Shown here: positions 9,341 to 15,830 of the stretch, in pieces
Layout: every line of letters starts with the position of its first letter
How positions within the stretch are numbered: the first letter of the stretch is position 1
Assembly (NCBI GenBank): GCA_027061855.1
Contig: JAMOVT010000082.1
Location: 1-33,211 of the forward strand
From: Flavobacteriales bacterium
GTDB lineage: Bacteria; Bacteroidota; Bacteroidia; Flavobacteriales; Flavobacteriaceae
Reading direction: 5' to 3'
DNA length: 33,211 nucleotides
The notes under the pieces: generated by a model
What the model was told of the DNA's origin: nothing
Seen by the model: only the letters and a program-made list of their open reading frames with translations
The model's database searches: none
Program-made: the position numbers and the translations under genes

Positions 9341-11008
9341 TTAAGCAACTTGTTTTTTGGCTCTTGCGGCAATTACTCTGTCATAAATAACCAAGCCTAC
9401 AATGGTAATCAAACCGATACCTGCAATGATATACCAAATATTACTTGGATGATAAGTTTCCCAAAGATATTGGGTCAGCTCATTTACGCTCATTCCCAAT
9501 TGTTTGGCCGCTTCGGCGATAAAATCGTTTTTGGAAAATTCTCCCGAAATCACCACGTTTTCGGCTCCGGGTACCAATGCTTGTTCTTTGATTTGTTTGA
9601 TAATCGGTCCCCAATCCTTTATATTTTCGGTAGGAGGAATAATTTTAAGGGCTTCTTCCAAGTGGATGGAATTAAGATTATATAATTTTTGAATAAATTC
9701 TTCCTTGCTCAGCGGGGTTCCGATTTCTTTTATATGAATTCCTTTTTCGGCCAAGAGCCGTTTGAGAAGACTCACTTTATCGGAGTATTTTTCATATAAA
9801 TCTCCGGTAATTAATTTGGTCAAGAAATTGGCTGCCGAAATGGGAAGGAAATAGGTTCCCATATACAGTGCTTCTTTTCCCTTGGGAGAAATTTTGGCAA
9901 TATAATCGGAGAACTTCGGATTGGAAGTCATCTCACCGATGGCAAAAATCAAAATTCCTAATATGGTATAAAAAACATTATTGGTATAAAAAGACAAAGC
10001 TATCCCGATAATGGCAATGAGAATACCGGTCATCATCGCATTTATTGGTTTCCATTTTAGTATAATGGTGGATACAGCCATTTGAAAAATCACGATAAAG
10101 AAAGCATCGAGATTGACAATCATTTCGGGATTTACACCTCCTTCTTTGTTTTTAAAGAAATCGGCAAACCACTGCGGAATAAAAGCCGCTTTATCCAAAA
10201 ATTCGCCCAGAGGTTTTGTATTTACCCAGTCTTCAATAAAAGTAGGGAGGGTATAAAAAAGCTGATTGAACATCAACCAAAAACCGATCATGATAATTAA
10301 CAGTAAAGTCAATTTCATATCGGATAAGGCTTCCCAAATATTTTTGAGGGATTTCATAATGGTTTGTCCGAAACTTTCATTGCTTTCTTCCCTGTCGGGT
10401 TCTTTAAAGAAAAACAATACCAGGATCATGTTGACTGCAATTGCCGAAGCAGCCATTATAAATACGATTTTCCATCCGTAAGTATCCCTTAATTTGGCAG
10501 AAAACAACGGCCCGAAAAATCCACCGATATTTACCATCATATAAAAAACTCCGAAACCAAAGGAGGAATTACGCTCATCGGTTGATTTGGTGACAATTGC
10601 AGAAGCCACAGGCTTAAACATCGCTGCTCCCAAGGCTACCCATAAAAACATGAGAAATACCGCCGTATAGGAAGTGACTTCTCCCATAAAATAGTAACCG
10701 GTTCCAAGGAGGATATAGGCAATAATCAAGGATTTTTTATATCCTATTTTATCTGCAATAGCTCCGGTGATGATAGGTAATAAATATAAAATTCCCGTTA
10801 CATAGGCCATTATCTCTCCTTTTTCCGTATGAGAGAAGCCCAAGGCACCGGTATCCGTAGATCCGGTTAAATAAAGGGCCAAAACGGCAAATAATCCATA
10901 CCATGCCCAACGTTCGAATAATTCCATCGCACTCGCTACCCAGAAAGGACGTGGAAAGGATTTGAGTAAGCCGATAAATCCTAAGTCTTCTTTGTTTTCT
11001 TTATTCAT
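9341..11008 (-). CDS. POT/PTR2-like MFS transporter, divergent paralogue
   Basis: 555-residue major facilitator protein related to proton-dependent oligopeptide transporters. The first helix carries ExxERWAWYG at 29-38, a variant of the POT signature ExxERFxYYG, and YMMVNIGGFFGPLF matches the second POT motif (FYxxINxGSL). Helices follow the usual 12-helix plan, but between about residues 400 and 515 there is a hydrophilic helical insert of over 100 residues (KRLLAEKGIHIKEIG through MSVNELTQYLWE) before the last membrane helix. The substrate is probably a peptide or peptide-like compound, but the altered signature makes this uncertain. It follows a POT gene on the same strand, separated by 0.9 kb of heptamer arrays, and has its own terminator. 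Confidence 0.85.
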   Translation of the reverse strand: MNKENKEDLGFIGLLKSFPRPFWVASAMELFERWAWYGLFAVLALYLTGSTDTGALGFSHTEKGEIMAYVTGILYLLPIITGAIADKIGYKKSLIIAYILLGTGYYFMGEVTSYTAVFLMFLWVALGAAMFKPVASAIVTKSTDERNSSFGFGVFYMMVNIGGFFGPLFSAKLRDTYGWKIVFIMAASAIAVNMILVLFFFKEPDREESNESFGQTIMKSLKNIWEALSDMKLTLLLIIMIGFWLMFNQLFYTLPTFIEDWVNTKPLGEFLDKAAFIPQWFADFFKNKEGGVNPEMIVNLDAFFIVIFQMAVSTIILKWKPINAMMTGILIAIIGIALSFYTNNVFYTILGILIFAIGEMTSNPKFSDYIAKISPKGKEALYMGTYFLPISAANFLTKLITGDLYEKYSDKVSLLKRLLAEKGIHIKEIGTPLSKEEFIQKLYNLNSIHLEEALKIIPPTENIKDWGPIIKQIKEQALVPGAENVVISGEFSKNDFIAEAAKQLGMSVNELTQYLWETYHPSNIWYIIAGIGLITIVGLVIYDRVIAARAKKQVA

Positions 11009-11021
11009 AATTTTTTCTTGT

Positions 11022-11378
11022 TTAGTGGTCTGTTATTAGTTGTCTGTTATTAGTTGTCTGTTATTAGTTGTCTGTTGTCAGTTGTTAGTTGTCTGTTGTC
11101 AGTTGTCTGTTATTAGTTGTCTGTTGTCAGTTGTTAGTGGTCTGTTTTTAGTTGTCTGTTGTCAGTTGTCTGTTATTAGTTGTCTGTTGTCAGTTGTTAG
11201 TGGTCTGTTTTTAGTTGTCTGTTGTCAGTTGTCTGTTATTAGTTGTCTGTAATTAGTTATCTGTTATTAGTTGTCTGTTATTAGTTATCTGTTATTAGTT
11301 GTCTGTTATTAGTTATCTGTTATTAGTTATCTGTTGTTAGTTATCAGTTATTGGTTGTTAGTGTTTAGTTGTCGGTTG
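11022..11378. repeat. Heptanucleotide array 1 (T[TC][AT]GTTN), 51 units
   Basis: The main units are TTAGTTG, TCTGTTA, TCTGTTG, TCAGTTG, TTAGTGG and TCTGTTT. The register is kept from 11022 to 11378, 357 bp or exactly 51 x 7, with no insertion or deletion that shifts it. Positions 1 and 4 are essentially invariant (T and G); variation is confined to the others. A higher-order unit of nine heptamers (63 bp) is duplicated: TTAGTGG occurs at 11134-11140 and again at 11197-11203 in the same context. The plus strand is G/T-rich. Confidence 0.92.
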
Positions 11379-11455
11379 TGTATGATAAGGTTGTGACTAA
11401 AAGTAAAGGCTGATAAAGCAATGTTTTTTATAAATTAAATATATAAATTCCTTTA

Positions 11456-11903
11456 CATCCGTCACCCGTCATCAAGCACCCAACATCCGGCATCAAGCAT
11501 CCGTCATCCGTCATCAAGCACCCAACATCGGTCACCCGTCACCCAACATCCAACATCGGTCACCCGTCACCCAACATCCATCATCCAACCTCCGTCATCA
11601 AGCATCCGACATCCGTCACCCGTCACCCGTCACCCAACATCGGTCACCCGTCACCCAACATCCATCATCCAACCTCCGTCATCAAGCATCCGACATCCGT
11701 CACCCGTCACCCGTCACCCAACATCGGTCACCCATCACCCATCATCCAACATCGGTCACCCGTCATCAAGCATCCGACATCCGTCACCCGTCACCCGTCA
11801 CCCAACATCGGTCACCCGTCATCCATCATCAAGCATCGGTCACCCGTCATCTATCATCAAGCACCCGACATCCGACCTCCGACATCAAACACCTAACATC
11901 CAA
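11456..11903. repeat. Heptanucleotide array 2 (CAYCVRN), 64 units
   Basis: The units are CATCCGT, CACCCGT, CACCCAA, CATCAAG, CATCGGT, CATCCAA, CATCCGA, CATCCAT, CCTCCGT and similar. The register is unbroken from 11456 to 11903, 448 bp or 64 x 7. A higher-order block of twelve heptamers (84 bp) repeats, starting at 11575 and 11659, with a shorter third copy near 11770. The array stops four bases before the stop codon of the POT gene. The minus strand is G-rich, with runs such as GGGTGACGGGTGACGGG. Confidence 0.92.
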
Positions 11904-11907
11904 ATCC

Positions 11908-13626
11908 TTAATGTATCCCCTTCATCGCTTTGTTTAACAAGGGAGAGAGCAATAATACGATCAATCCGGATCCGAGCATTACCCACATGATAAACGGATA
12001 AAGTTCAAGCTGATGTCCGCTTTCATTGAGTTTATGTAAAATACTTTCCAGCATACCGGCCAAATAATTTCCGGCGGCAAAACTCGCCATCCATAGTCCC
12101 ATTACAATAGAAATCAATTTTCTGGGAGCCAATTTGGTAATCATCGACAAACCGATAGGAGAAAGCATCAATTCTCCCAAGGTAAGAATGGTATAAACCG
12201 CAACCAGCCACATCGGAGAAACTTTTACTCCGGTTTTGGCAATATGATCCGCCTGGGTCATTACAAAGAAGGCCAAAGCACCAAGGAATAATCCGATGGC
12301 AAACTTGATAGGCGTACGCGGATTGAGTTTCATTTTATCCAATTTCAACCACATTACGGAGAAAATAGGAGCAAAAATCAAAATGGCGATAGGATTCACG
12401 TTTTGGAACCATGTAGCAGGAATTTCGGGACCTTCAGAGAAGTATTTCAATAGAGCCAATACTCCAAAAATAACTACTCCGTAACCGGTGTATTTCCCGA
12501 TTTTAGTAAATTTTTCGACTTTGTTCTCATCATCCGAATAAATTTTTATGTAAATACTGTAAATCCAGATTAATAAGGAGATTCCCGCTAAAATTCCCCA
12601 CACTTTGATATCTATATTCGTAAAGAAAGAAGGTAAATCAAAACCGGACATTTGTCGATCCGTATTATCCTTAGCGAAAAGGTTCATGGTTCCTCCCGCT
12701 TGTTCAAAACCGGCCCAAAAAGCAATATTAAAGAAAGCCAAGACCAAGATAACAATCATACGTGACCATTCTTCGGCACCGTTTGTTCCTTTGAAAATAA
12801 CATAGCCCAAAGCGAGAATACCGGCAGTAAAACCTATAATGGTAATGGCACTTGTTACTTTATCGGGTAAGGCTTTCCAAACAACCATGATAATCAATGT
12901 GCCGAGAATTAATCCGATGGCATAAATAATAATATCTTTCCAATCTTTTGCCGTTAAAACATTGGAGTTTCCTTCATAATTGGGAGGTAAACCTTTGTCT
13001 TCAAGAGTGTTTTCATGGAAGTAAAGCCAAACTACACTGAGTAACATTCCAATACCCGCAGCCAGATATCCCCAGCCCCAATCTACATTTTCTCCCAACG
13101 CACCGGCAATAAACGGCCCTAAAATGGCACCGAGATTGATACCCATATAGAAAATATTGAAAGCCGAATCTTTCCTCGGGTCATTATCATCATAAAAATC
13201 TCCTACAATGGTCGAAATATTGGGTTTAAAGAAACCGTTTCCGATAATAAGAACACCTAATCCGAGATTAAAAAGGAATAATCGGGTTTGAGGGTCCAAG
13301 GAATGGGCAAGAAAAGCACTGGCAGCCAGCAGGAACTGACCTACGGCCATAACCAATCCACCGATATAAACGGTTTTTCGTTTCCCTAAAAATTTATCGG
13401 CTACCCAACCTCCGATAATCGGAGTGAGGTAAACCAAACCGGTAAAGATGGCATAAATAGCCAAAGCTTCTTCTCGATTGAGTCCAAAACCACCTTCAAT
13501 TAAAGTAGCGGTCAGATATAAAGTAAGTAAAGCACGCATCCCGTAATAACTGAAACGTTCCCACATTTCGGTAGTAAACAGGGTATAGAGTGCTCTTGGA
13601 TGCTTTTGCTGTGTATTTTGTTCCAT
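11908..13626 (-). CDS. Proton-dependent oligopeptide transporter (POT/PTR2 family)
   Basis: 572-residue inner-membrane MFS symporter that imports di- and tripeptides with protons. The signature ExxERFSYYG is at residues 20-29 in the first helix; GLVYLTPIIGGWVADKFLGK follows, FYMGINLGAILGPF gives the second POT motif, and FWAGFEQAGG corresponds to the third. The length and 12-14 helix pattern are normal for bacterial POTs. The gene starts 44 bp after the dipeptidyl peptidase IV gene on the same strand, so the two are probably one operon: the peptidase would release dipeptides in the periplasm and this protein would take them up. Its stop codon is abutted by heptamer array 2. Confidence 0.94.
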   Translation of the reverse strand: MEQNTQQKHPRALYTLFTTEMWERFSYYGMRALLTLYLTATLIEGGFGLNREEALAIYAIFTGLVYLTPIIGGWVADKFLGKRKTVYIGGLVMAVGQFLLAASAFLAHSLDPQTRLFLFNLGLGVLIIGNGFFKPNISTIVGDFYDDNDPRKDSAFNIFYMGINLGAILGPFIAGALGENVDWGWGYLAAGIGMLLSVVWLYFHENTLEDKGLPPNYEGNSNVLTAKDWKDIIIYAIGLILGTLIIMVVWKALPDKVTSAITIIGFTAGILALGYVIFKGTNGAEEWSRMIVILVLAFFNIAFWAGFEQAGGTMNLFAKDNTDRQMSGFDLPSFFTNIDIKVWGILAGISLLIWIYSIYIKIYSDDENKVEKFTKIGKYTGYGVVIFGVLALLKYFSEGPEIPATWFQNVNPIAILIFAPIFSVMWLKLDKMKLNPRTPIKFAIGLFLGALAFFVMTQADHIAKTGVKVSPMWLVAVYTILTLGELMLSPIGLSMITKLAPRKLISIVMGLWMASFAAGNYLAGMLESILHKLNESGHQLELYPFIMWVMLGSGLIVLLLSPLLNKAMKGIH

Positions 13627-13670: not shown

Positions 13671-15830
13671 TTATAAATTATTGATAATATAGTTTAACAT
13701 TTTTTTGTATAAATGATGACGTGTTTTTCCTCCGTAAATACCATGATTTTTATCGGTATAAATCATTTCGTCAAAAGGTTGATCGTTTTCTTGTAAATTT
13801 TTTGCCAGTCGCATGCTGTTTTGCAAATGGACATTATCGTCGGCACTTCCGTGTATCAATAAAAATTTTCCTTTTAGCCCGTTAGTAAAAAATAAAGGTG
13901 AATTCTCATCATAACCTTCGGGATTTTCTTGTGGGGTTTGTAGATATCGTTCGGTATAGACCGTATCATAGAAACGCCAGTTGGTTACAGGTGCCACGGC
14001 AATGGCGAGAGAAAAGATTTCCGGCTTTTTTAAAATGGCATTACTGCTCATAAATCCGCCGAAGGACCATCCCCATATTCCTATTCTTTGAAGGTCGTTA
14101 TGGTGTGATTTTGCAAAACTCATCGTTGCTGCACTGACATCTTCGAGTTCCAATTTTCCCAATTGTTTGTAGGTGGACTTCTTGAAATCGGCTCCACGTC
14201 CTCCCGTTCCGTGTGGATCGACGGAGATTACCGTATAGCCTTTGTTGGCCAATAGAAAATGATAGTAATCATTGGAAGAGTTCCACGTGTTCCGTACGGT
14301 TTGTATATTAGGGCCACTGTATTGAAAAACAAACAAAGGCGTGTTTTTCTTTGCGTTTTTTGCCGGGATCACATACGCATTTAAAGGCGTGCCGTCAGCC
14401 GCAGGCAGAGTGATGAATTTCTTTTGGGGTAAATCATAAGCCGCCAGCTTTTCCAGCAGTTTATGGTTATCAATCAAGGTTTTAATGACTTTGCCGTCTT
14501 TTCCACGTCTTACGCTATAAGTATAAGGAGTGGAAATATTGGAAAAAGTATTGATAAAATATTTGAAATTTGCACTGAATTCCGCATTGGAAGTTCCGTT
14601 TTCGGGACTCAATAATTTTTTGTGTTTTCCTTTGATATCAATACTGTATATTCCGCGATTTATCGATCCGTTTTCGGTAGATTGGTAATAAAGGCGTTTC
14701 GTTTTCGGGTTATAGCCGTAGAAAGCGGTAATTTCCCAAGGTCCTTTGGTGATTTGTCTGATTTTTTTCCCTTTATAATTGTAAAGATAAAAATGATTAA
14801 AACCGTCTTCTTCGCTTGACCAAATAAAACTCCCGTCCGATAAAAAGCTGAGATTATCGGTAGCTTCCAGATCTACATATCTCGGATCTTTTCTTTCGAC
14901 AACTACTCCGGACTTGTCAAAGGTGGCATTGTATTTATAGAGTTTTAAGTCATTTTGTAAACGGTTAAGAGTGATAAAGGTCAGACAATCGTTTTTTTGT
15001 GTCCATTTTATGCGTGGGAGATATTCATATTCTCCTTCAAAAGAAACTTTTTTTGTTTCTCCTTCTTTTAAACGATAGAGATGTAAACTGACTTCGGAAT
15101 TTTTCTCTCCGGCTTTGGGATATTTAAAGGTTTCGACTTCGGGATAAAGTTTTTCTCCGTAACGAATCATTGAGAATTCCGGGACTTGCGATTCGTCAAA
15201 TTTTACAAATGCAATCATTGTTCCGTCGGGATTCCATTCATAGGCTTTTGAATAGCTGAATTCTTCCTCATAAACCCAATCGGGAATGGCATTGATAATT
15301 TTGTTTTTTTCTCCGTCGGTTGTGATTTGAACGGTCTTTCCGCTGAGGAGATCTTTGTAATAGAGATTATTGTCTTGAACAAAAGCCACTTTTGTATTGT
15401 CAGGACTAAAAGAGGGTTCCTGAATGGGTTTTTCATTGATTTTTATCAATTCTTTTGATTGACGATTATATACGTAAAATATTCCGGTCGACGAATGTCT
15501 GTAAATAGGTTTTCGGTTGGTTCCTATCAGAATTTTGCTTTCATCGTTTGAAAAGGTATAATTAAAATAATTAATTTCAGGAAAGTCTTGGGAAGAAAAA
15601 GCGGTACTTATTTTTTTTTGAGTGGGATAATCATAAATCCCGATTTCATAAGCTTTTGTTTTTGGGTTATAATCGATTTTTGAATAGTAATCTGATGAAG
15701 GTAAGGCGGTTAATCCGTATATATATTCGTAGCGAAAATTTCCGTTCCATATTTCGTCAATGGTAATTTGTTTTTTTTGAGCCGGAAGGCTTAGGCTGAT
15801 GAGCAAGAATAAAACCAATAATTTTTTCAT
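13671..15830 (-). CDS. Dipeptidyl peptidase IV, S9 family serine peptidase
   Basis: 719 residues with an N-terminal signal peptide (MKKLLVLFLLISLSLPAQ), so periplasmic or exported. It removes N-terminal dipeptides, typically X-Pro or X-Ala. The N-terminal beta-propeller contains WVYEEEF, the double-glutamate motif that binds the free amino terminus in DPP IV. The C-terminal alpha/beta hydrolase domain shows Ser589 in GWSFGG, Asp664/665 in HGSADDNVH and His696 in KNHGIYGG. All catalytic parts are intact. It is first in a minus-strand operon with the POT transporter. The gene is divergent from the lipoprotein gene at 16062; TTAATTTG on the minus strand near 15850 is a one-mismatch -7 element. 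Confidence 0.95.
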   Translation of the reverse strand: MKKLLVLFLLISLSLPAQKKQITIDEIWNGNFRYEYIYGLTALPSSDYYSKIDYNPKTKAYEIGIYDYPTQKKISTAFSSQDFPEINYFNYTFSNDESKILIGTNRKPIYRHSSTGIFYVYNRQSKELIKINEKPIQEPSFSPDNTKVAFVQDNNLYYKDLLSGKTVQITTDGEKNKIINAIPDWVYEEEFSYSKAYEWNPDGTMIAFVKFDESQVPEFSMIRYGEKLYPEVETFKYPKAGEKNSEVSLHLYRLKEGETKKVSFEGEYEYLPRIKWTQKNDCLTFITLNRLQNDLKLYKYNATFDKSGVVVERKDPRYVDLEATDNLSFLSDGSFIWSSEEDGFNHFYLYNYKGKKIRQITKGPWEITAFYGYNPKTKRLYYQSTENGSINRGIYSIDIKGKHKKLLSPENGTSNAEFSANFKYFINTFSNISTPYTYSVRRGKDGKVIKTLIDNHKLLEKLAAYDLPQKKFITLPAADGTPLNAYVIPAKNAKKNTPLFVFQYSGPNIQTVRNTWNSSNDYYHFLLANKGYTVISVDPHGTGGRGADFKKSTYKQLGKLELEDVSAATMSFAKSHHNDLQRIGIWGWSFGGFMSSNAILKKPEIFSLAIAVAPVTNWRFYDTVYTERYLQTPQENPEGYDENSPLFFTNGLKGKFLLIHGSADDNVHLQNSMRLAKNLQENDQPFDEMIYTDKNHGIYGGKTRHHLYKKMLNYIINNL

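Follow-up and report, generated by a model that had tools for sequence, protein, structure and literature searches.

Why should two long arrays of seven-base repeats, built from different units, face each other in a single gap between two transporter genes? The question is raised by a stretch of 33,211 nucleotides from a Flavobacteriales bacterium, hereafter the window, in which an intergenic gap of 899 bp (11009-11907) between co-directional POT/MFS genes is occupied by both arrays. The features of this region are listed below in window coordinates.

9341-11008, minus strand: divergent POT/MFS transporter, the downstream gene, 555 aa (MFS_1 2.2e-33, PTR2 6.4e-9)
11022-11377, minus strand: array 1, 50 heptamers, YAACWRA on the minus (coding) strand and TYWGTTR on the plus strand, a C/A-rich leader
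11378-11455, no strand: spacer, 78 bp of A/T-rich unique sequence
11456-11902, plus strand: array 2, 63 heptamers, CAYCVRN on the plus strand, G/T-rich on the coding (minus) strand
11908-13626, minus strand: canonical POT of the oligopeptide:H+ symporter family, the upstream gene, 572 aa (PTR2 E 4.5e-66)
13671-15830, minus strand: DPP IV-type peptidase, 719 aa, upstream of both transporter genes

Read in the direction of the genes, the order is the POT stop codon, G/U-rich array 2, the spacer, C/A-rich array 1 and the ATG of the MFS gene. Array 2 starts 5 nt past the stop codon, and the 3' end of array 1 on the coding strand lies 13 nt before the ATG (11008). The peptidase gene is possibly in one operon with the POT and MFS genes. 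An earlier note on this DNA had described two heptamer arrays of period seven, free of indels and of unrelated consensus, which separate a canonical POT gene from a divergent one. This description was borne out: each array runs in one register with 0 indels, and the PTR2 and MFS_1 profile scores distinguish the two transporters. The short unique spacer was likewise found, with a measured length of 78 bp instead of the 77 bp given. Lag-7 identity is 0.659 in array 1 and 0.686 in array 2, reached by 0 of 1000 base shuffles for either (highest values 0.458 and 0.375, respectively), and no further period-7 place was called by a lag-7 scan of the window. The unit profiles of the two arrays align at 0.687 at best over 7 rotations and 2 orientations, which is lower than in 99.5% of 3118 array pairs from other loci. 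A common skeleton YANCNRN in opposite orientation, attractive by eye, was rejected on account of this low similarity. No Rfam match at gathering score was obtained in the window; two tRNAs were found in one of the other loci (L197).

Internal duplications are evident in both arrays. In array 1, 14 consecutive identical units (98 bp) are repeated at an offset of 9 units (63 bp), and in array 2, 13 consecutive identical units (91 bp) are repeated at an offset of 12 units (84 bp). Tandem Repeats Finder gave 63 bp and 84 bp as higher-order units, the latter in array 2. In-register copying of blocks of tens of bases, which we infer from these duplications, can account for the constant period as well as for the lack of indels; since block copying preserves the period, a seven-base stepping enzyme becomes unnecessary.

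The favoured explanation, to which a probability of about 0.58 is assigned, is therefore that both arrays are lineage-specific heptamer expansions of a known class, grown by block duplication, and do not form a working hairpin around an S23p (PF05635) gene; the gap would hold a satellite expansion whose influence on the MFS gene is at most that of a leader. Heptamer repeats would have expanded in a pre-existing gap between co-directional genes, probably through in-register duplication of multi-unit blocks by slippage or unequal exchange. Both would belong to a class of arrays, heptameric and sometimes octameric, that occupy gaps between genes in this lineage; elsewhere in the same genome, members of this class make up the inverted arms of small elements built around an S23p gene and resembling 23S rRNA intervening sequences. 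If the genes are co-transcribed, array 1 is most likely no more than an extended 5' leader of weak structure ahead of the MFS gene, and array 2 most likely a G/U-rich trailer past the POT stop; the effect on expression may be mild or absent. Several observations weigh against this explanation. Three columns are invariant in 50/50 units of array 1 and two in 63/63 units of array 2, and such invariance, with variation confined to few other columns, is not expected of drift without homogenisation or selection. The others, described below, are the indirect link of YAACWRA arrays to S23p, the strand bias missing from stop-proximal arrays, the exclusions behind the start-proximal count and the many matches of a backward-reading control pattern.

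The age of the arrays can be judged from the orthologous locus, at which 44 of the 79 loci found were examined. The ORF preceding the MFS orthologue is POT-like in 40/44; the MFS orthologue itself was called in 42/44, with a gap to the previous ORF of 1-358 bp in 41 and of 1229 bp in one (L102). The prevalence of the POT-like neighbour and the mostly short gaps indicate that the gene pair is older than the arrays, which leaves little weight to the proposal that the gap was an insertion point between duplicated genes. The POT-MFS gaps of L067-L072 span 71-265 bp, and the scan called no array there. Triple YAACWRA units occur in 63/299 family genomes and in none of the 8 near-relative genome handles (the same-genus one and those of L067-L073), two of which, G234 and G303, share identical coordinates, so that 7 distinct genomes are represented. 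With orthologous gaps mostly short and YAACWRA arrays missing in near relatives, the array expansion is lineage-specific. Period-7 arrays of other units stand directly before the MFS orthologue in two loci of other lineages (L074:1170-1273 and L111:953-1075) and before a distant homologue of this gene (L130:2480-2589), indicating that the site has been recurrently colonised.

Other arrays exist in the same genome, on C40, C67, C68, C70 and C97/C98. The YAACWRA pattern gives 78 overlapping matches, on C40, C68, C70, C82 and C97/C98. A backward-reading control pattern matches many family genomes too, and CAACARA units satisfy both patterns; the YAACWRA unit itself may therefore not be special. 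On C70, arrays occupy several gaps of the hydrogenase maturation (hyp) cluster and are also found in the neighbouring Mbh/Mrp/complex I-like cluster on the opposite strand; over C70:1-40000 (L061, L062), heptamer arrays are concentrated in these NiFe-hydrogenase maturation and Mbh/Mrp/complex I-like clusters. The hypA-hypB gap (L061:7516-8213), nearly 700 bp long, has G/T-rich heptamers and octamers on its stop-codon side, a palindromic repeat in two copies at its centre and YAACWRA units on its start-codon side. Visual inspection shows a similar palindrome in L067 and L068, between the POT and MFS orthologues. The same hypA-hypB gap includes an octamer stretch (L061 7706-7770), an array of a different period, which the earlier note had named as evidence against its own reading. 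Contigs C97 and C98 (end of L065, start of L066) appear to overlap by ~127 bp within one heptamer array, and the arrays of C40 and C68 lie close to contig ends. Thus, the contig breaks of this assembly, which comprises 117 contigs, probably fall at arrays, and the genome may contain more of them.

Array 1 might do more than lengthen a leader. It could be a putative 5' untranslated regulatory leader by which an RNA-binding protein (S1, Csp or similar) adjusts how strongly the MFS gene is translated, a reading that we consider rather unlikely. In its favour, skewed arrays next to start codons are C/A-rich rather than G/T-rich on the coding strand by 8:1 in this genome and by 6:2, 23:6 and 7:1 in three other sets (44:10 in total), counts that exclude skewless arrays (1, 12, 20 and 15; 48 in total) and arrays without a gene end within 60 bp (4, 13, 2 and 8; 27 in total), and to which one set selected around S23p genes, many of them at one junction, contributes. 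Array-free leaders show no C/A bias on the coding strand, and stop-proximal arrays have no consistent strand bias (GT:CA 5:5, 12:10, 8:24 and 2:4). The same heptamer family in forward orientation is described in excerpts of PMC4679880, and array 1 RNA, which contains 29 G among its 356 nt, is only slightly structured (mfe -8.2). Against this reading, the leaders of the nearest orthologues are without called arrays, and array 1 is slightly more structured than its shuffles (-8.2 vs -3.0).

The gene partner of such arrays, for which a reverse transcriptase or recombinase had been suggested, points in another direction. The expectation of a co-occurring gene stands in spirit, with S23p (PF05635) in that place; no reverse transcriptase partner was found, RVT_1 (PF00078) giving 0 hits in the genome, which is 95% complete. 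PF05635 has three hits in this genome, all three with period-7 arrays on both sides:

C70:16788-17099 (L195): S23p gene in the Mbh/Mrp/complex I-like cluster, between heptamer arrays
C70:20331-20645 (L196): S23p gene in the Mbh/Mrp/complex I-like cluster, between heptamer arrays
C67:22326-22643 (L197): S23p gene between heptamer arrays

The left arm of the first (L195:1294-1343) was called at a relaxed threshold only and was also recovered by pattern. The two C70 genes are assigned to PF05635 (23S_rRNA_IVP) and NCBIfam TIGR02436 (four helix bundle protein), and the nearest solved structure of their products by sequence is 2GSC. The two proteins are 66% identical, and their arms come from different families, CATCC-like and CTTCC-like.

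This association was examined in 79 distinct S23p genes, the three above included, a set which is not a random draw and comprises the best-scoring hits (30 loci) and 40 hand-picked loci, one per genome. ORFs were called ATG-only and longest-first, and the family (Flavobacteriaceae) and phylum (Bacteroidota) were assigned from named relatives. Flanks of 250 bp around S23p genes have 7 as their best lag in 49% of cases upstream and 47% downstream, compared with 13% and 13% for 426 control genes. When a fixed score is applied to lag 7 or 8, 58/79 genes have a positive flank on one side or both. Since 21 of the 79 genes lie at the fadA junction, the counts were repeated without this and three other recurring junctions, presumably metH, hemE and rluA (33 elements together, 3 of them at hemE); junctions were assigned via short peptide motifs, the FadA (thiolase) and FadB-like names being checked for one locus. 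At the remaining sites, at least one flank carries an array in 35/46 S23p genes against 27/323 control genes located >1.2 kb from any S23p gene (Fisher p = 1e-22), and both flanks do in 21/46 against 3/323 (p = 1e-18), the independence of these 46 elements being incomplete because the remaining sites may share ancestry. In a phylum-wide draw, 16 of 26 elements have at least one positive flank and 6 have both; these are 26 of the 29 loci L281-L309, at least 4 of them from the family of the window, and the draw has no separate phylum control. Of the gaps measuring 80-1200 bp, the 32 that touch S23p genes have 7 or 8 as best lag in 97% of cases, versus 33% of 186 controls, and lag 8 is the best in 36% of 32 S23p-adjacent gaps of relatives. 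The S23p gene is co-directional with both neighbours in 42/46 cases, and adjacent control pairs agree in 325/419.

PF05635 was detected at E <= 0.001 in 113/149 family genomes, 157/198 phylum genomes and 0/14 control genomes. The median number of hits is 6 in genomes with YAACWRA arrays (n=30) versus 2 in those without (n=118; p = 1e-4, uncorrected for genome size). The idea that YAACWRA arrays sit directly beside S23p genes in relatives was rejected: no S23p gene was found within ~1.5 kb in 28/29 YAACWRA loci, and in the single exception the two are ~1 kb apart. The link is thus indirect, by class of array rather than by the YAACWRA unit.

The arms of S23p elements tend to be inverted copies of each other and specific to their locus. 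In the full set of 79 elements, upstream flanks match their downstream counterparts better in reverse complement than in direct orientation (Wilcoxon p = 1.5e-7). For the 46 elements at other sites, the arm match is 23.3 within and 14.4 between loci, and RNAduplex energy is -23.8 within and -15.4 kcal/mol between loci (0/2000 permutations each). The 26 phylum elements give an inverted match of 27.7 vs 16.1 (0/2000) and a weaker direct one of 16.3 vs 14.2 (0/2000); in 9 near-relative elements, the inverted (24.8 vs 16.7; 0/2000) and direct (24.6 vs 17.2; 25/2000) signals are equally strong. At the fadA junction (21 elements), sequence matching is significant (2/2000) and duplex energy is not (175/2000); the metH junction (5 elements) is borderline by both (100/2000 for sequence, 59/2000 for duplex), and at the rluA junction (4 elements) arm matching is not significant. 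In this genome, each of the three S23p elements was compared with 15 shuffles and folds better than these, with z of -3.1, -6.2 and -5.6. A palindrome at the upstream stop codon, seen by eye at fadB, was considered as the origin of the arms and rejected, as stems of at least 6 are not in excess before S23p genes (4/36, compared with 10/147 control gene ends).

The fadB-fadA junction was found in several states. Among 30 genomes (L310-L339), a clean gap of 3-13 bp is present in 11, an S23p element in 6 (429-526 bp in the five of six whose whole gap was measured) and a gene-less gap of 58-137 bp in 13. By inspection, 11 of these 13 (58-116 bp) contain inverted heptamers or octamers and 2 contain other repeats; the fold z of the 11 is below -3 in 4, from -1.9 to -2.7 in 4 and -1.5 or weaker in 3. 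These states resemble autonomous and gene-less forms of one element. More widely, 7/8-bp arrays are held by 33/265 co-directional, 2/50 convergent and 2/55 divergent gaps free of S23p. The inverted match between the halves of the 33 co-directional array gaps is modest (18.2 vs 14.5 between gaps, without a significance test), and array-free gaps give 16.0 vs 14.2.

As unlikely as a regulatory leader, in our judgement, is plain replication slippage of two chance seeds unrelated to S23p elements. Isolated arrays without partner or gene do occur (C68, C97/C98 and the hypE leader), and 7-bp repeats are the commonest long SSR class in most surveyed genomes (Mrazek 2007, cited in PMC4679880, in the excerpts available). 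Chance seeding sits poorly with their distribution: in a 205-kb sample of the genome, period 7 was called once and weakly (0 calls in 1.03 Mb of Markov-3 sequence), against arrays on both sides of 3/3 S23p genes. Moreover, the strongest duplex of array 2 is with an S23p arm, the downstream one at C70:16.8 kb (-99, vs -47 with array 1), which places array 2 in the same heptamer family as that arm.

This kinship could also mean that the gap holds a gene-less (MITE-like) or decayed S23p/IVS-like element, whose gene was lost and whose inverted arms expanded and drifted, a possibility that we rate slightly below the previous two. The layout is identical, from stop codon through G/U-rich arm, short core and C/A-rich arm to ATG, the 11 gene-less fadB-fadA gaps with inverted repeats (four with fold z < -3) provide precedents, and array 2 shares its family with a real S23p arm of the same genome. 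Several observations oppose it. The two arms belong to unrelated families; no S23p gene or remnant was found by a six-frame profile search of the window, nor an S23p gene in any of the 44 orthologous loci searched in the same way. As a stem, the arms reach an RNAduplex energy of -120, no better than the -134 +/- 5 of unit-shuffled arms, and the fold of the gap (z 0.10) is no better than shuffles, on which grounds a paired hairpin was rejected. With the gene absent and the arms unpaired, the window is kin to S23p elements by composition and not a working member of them.

The weakest alternative, that a reverse-transcriptase-like or recombinase machinery copies DNA in seven-base steps, could appeal to the period shared by two unrelated units and to the resemblance of PF05635 to Avd, the accessory protein of diversity-generating retroelements (excerpts of PMC10053308); it is very improbable and unsupported in view of the multi-unit block duplications, the octamer arrays and the lack of an RVT_1 hit, and the reverse-transcriptase version is largely refuted.

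The expansion by block duplication favoured here may be part of a larger phenomenon. It is conceivable, though we hold it only tentatively and at less than even odds, that a Bacteroidota-wide family of intergenic, IVS-like selfish S23p elements makes and homogenises its own arms, the window arrays being by-products. Such an element would consist of an S23p gene (Avd-like, four-helix bundle) between inverted arrays of a locus-specific heptamer or octamer. It would insert between the stop and start of co-directional genes, so that in the mRNA the arms could pair on either side of the S23p ORF. Creation and homogenisation of the heptamer arms would be the work of the element or its protein, and gene-less hairpins and giant unpaired arrays such as those of the window would be left as by-products. 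As isolated satellites, the arrays would be a mere curiosity. The bracket of arms around S23p genes supplies a gene partner for the unexplained intergenic heptamers of this lineage, and the poorly understood S23p/IVS family gains many members outside rRNA. In addition, one junction, fadB-fadA, occurs in all three states (clean, gene-less and filled), which makes the role of S23p testable in cultivable laboratory flavobacteria.

Short tandem heptamers in intergenic DNA are known from cyanobacteria as STRR. Direct repeats of TAACTGA before start codons have been reported in Beggiatoaceae, Cyanobacteria and five Bacteroidetes (MacGregor 2015, PMC4679880). According to the portions of that paper available, long arrays mixed with other heptamers occur in Gramella and Aequorivita and mixed assemblages in Elizabethkingia, and control by an RNA-binding protein was proposed for the repeats of Beggiatoaceae. 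Array 1 resembles this class in that YAACWRA contains TAACTGA and in its 7-bp units, intergenic location and forward orientation before a start codon; array 2 has 7-bp units too, yet its consensus does not fit TAACTGA. Unlike the class as portrayed in those portions, the window has degenerate units, and these belong to two unrelated families that face each other within a single gap. Sets of TAACTGA were counted in that paper, and a term search found S23 absent from its main text.

With diversity-generating retroelements, the likeness lies in the similarity of PF05635 to Avd (PMC10053308, in part), and the difference in the absence of an RVT_1 hit from the genome. In the excerpts of two further papers, PF05635 is merely listed in one figure legend (PMC10910872) and two four helix bundle genes are placed in phage regions (PMC5524665). 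Among the matches listed in the open-access literature, none describes S23p elements that lie between genes and carry heptamer arms.

The closest parallel to the intergenic S23p elements is the 23S rRNA intervening sequence of PMC4990558, which its available sections describe as a selfish element of 428 nt with an S23p ORF, complementary ends and excision by RNase III, and with tandem heptamers of strain-variable number just before the ORF. The elements differ from it in lying between protein genes rather than in rRNA and in having locus-specific heptamer or octamer arrays as arms. The window locus, whose gap likewise lies between two protein genes and not in 23S rRNA, differs further in having neither an S23p ORF nor pairing arms. 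In size and plan the likeness is close, the fadB-fadA gaps with an S23p element measuring 429-526 bp against the 428 nt of the intervening sequence, with an ORF between complementary ends in both.
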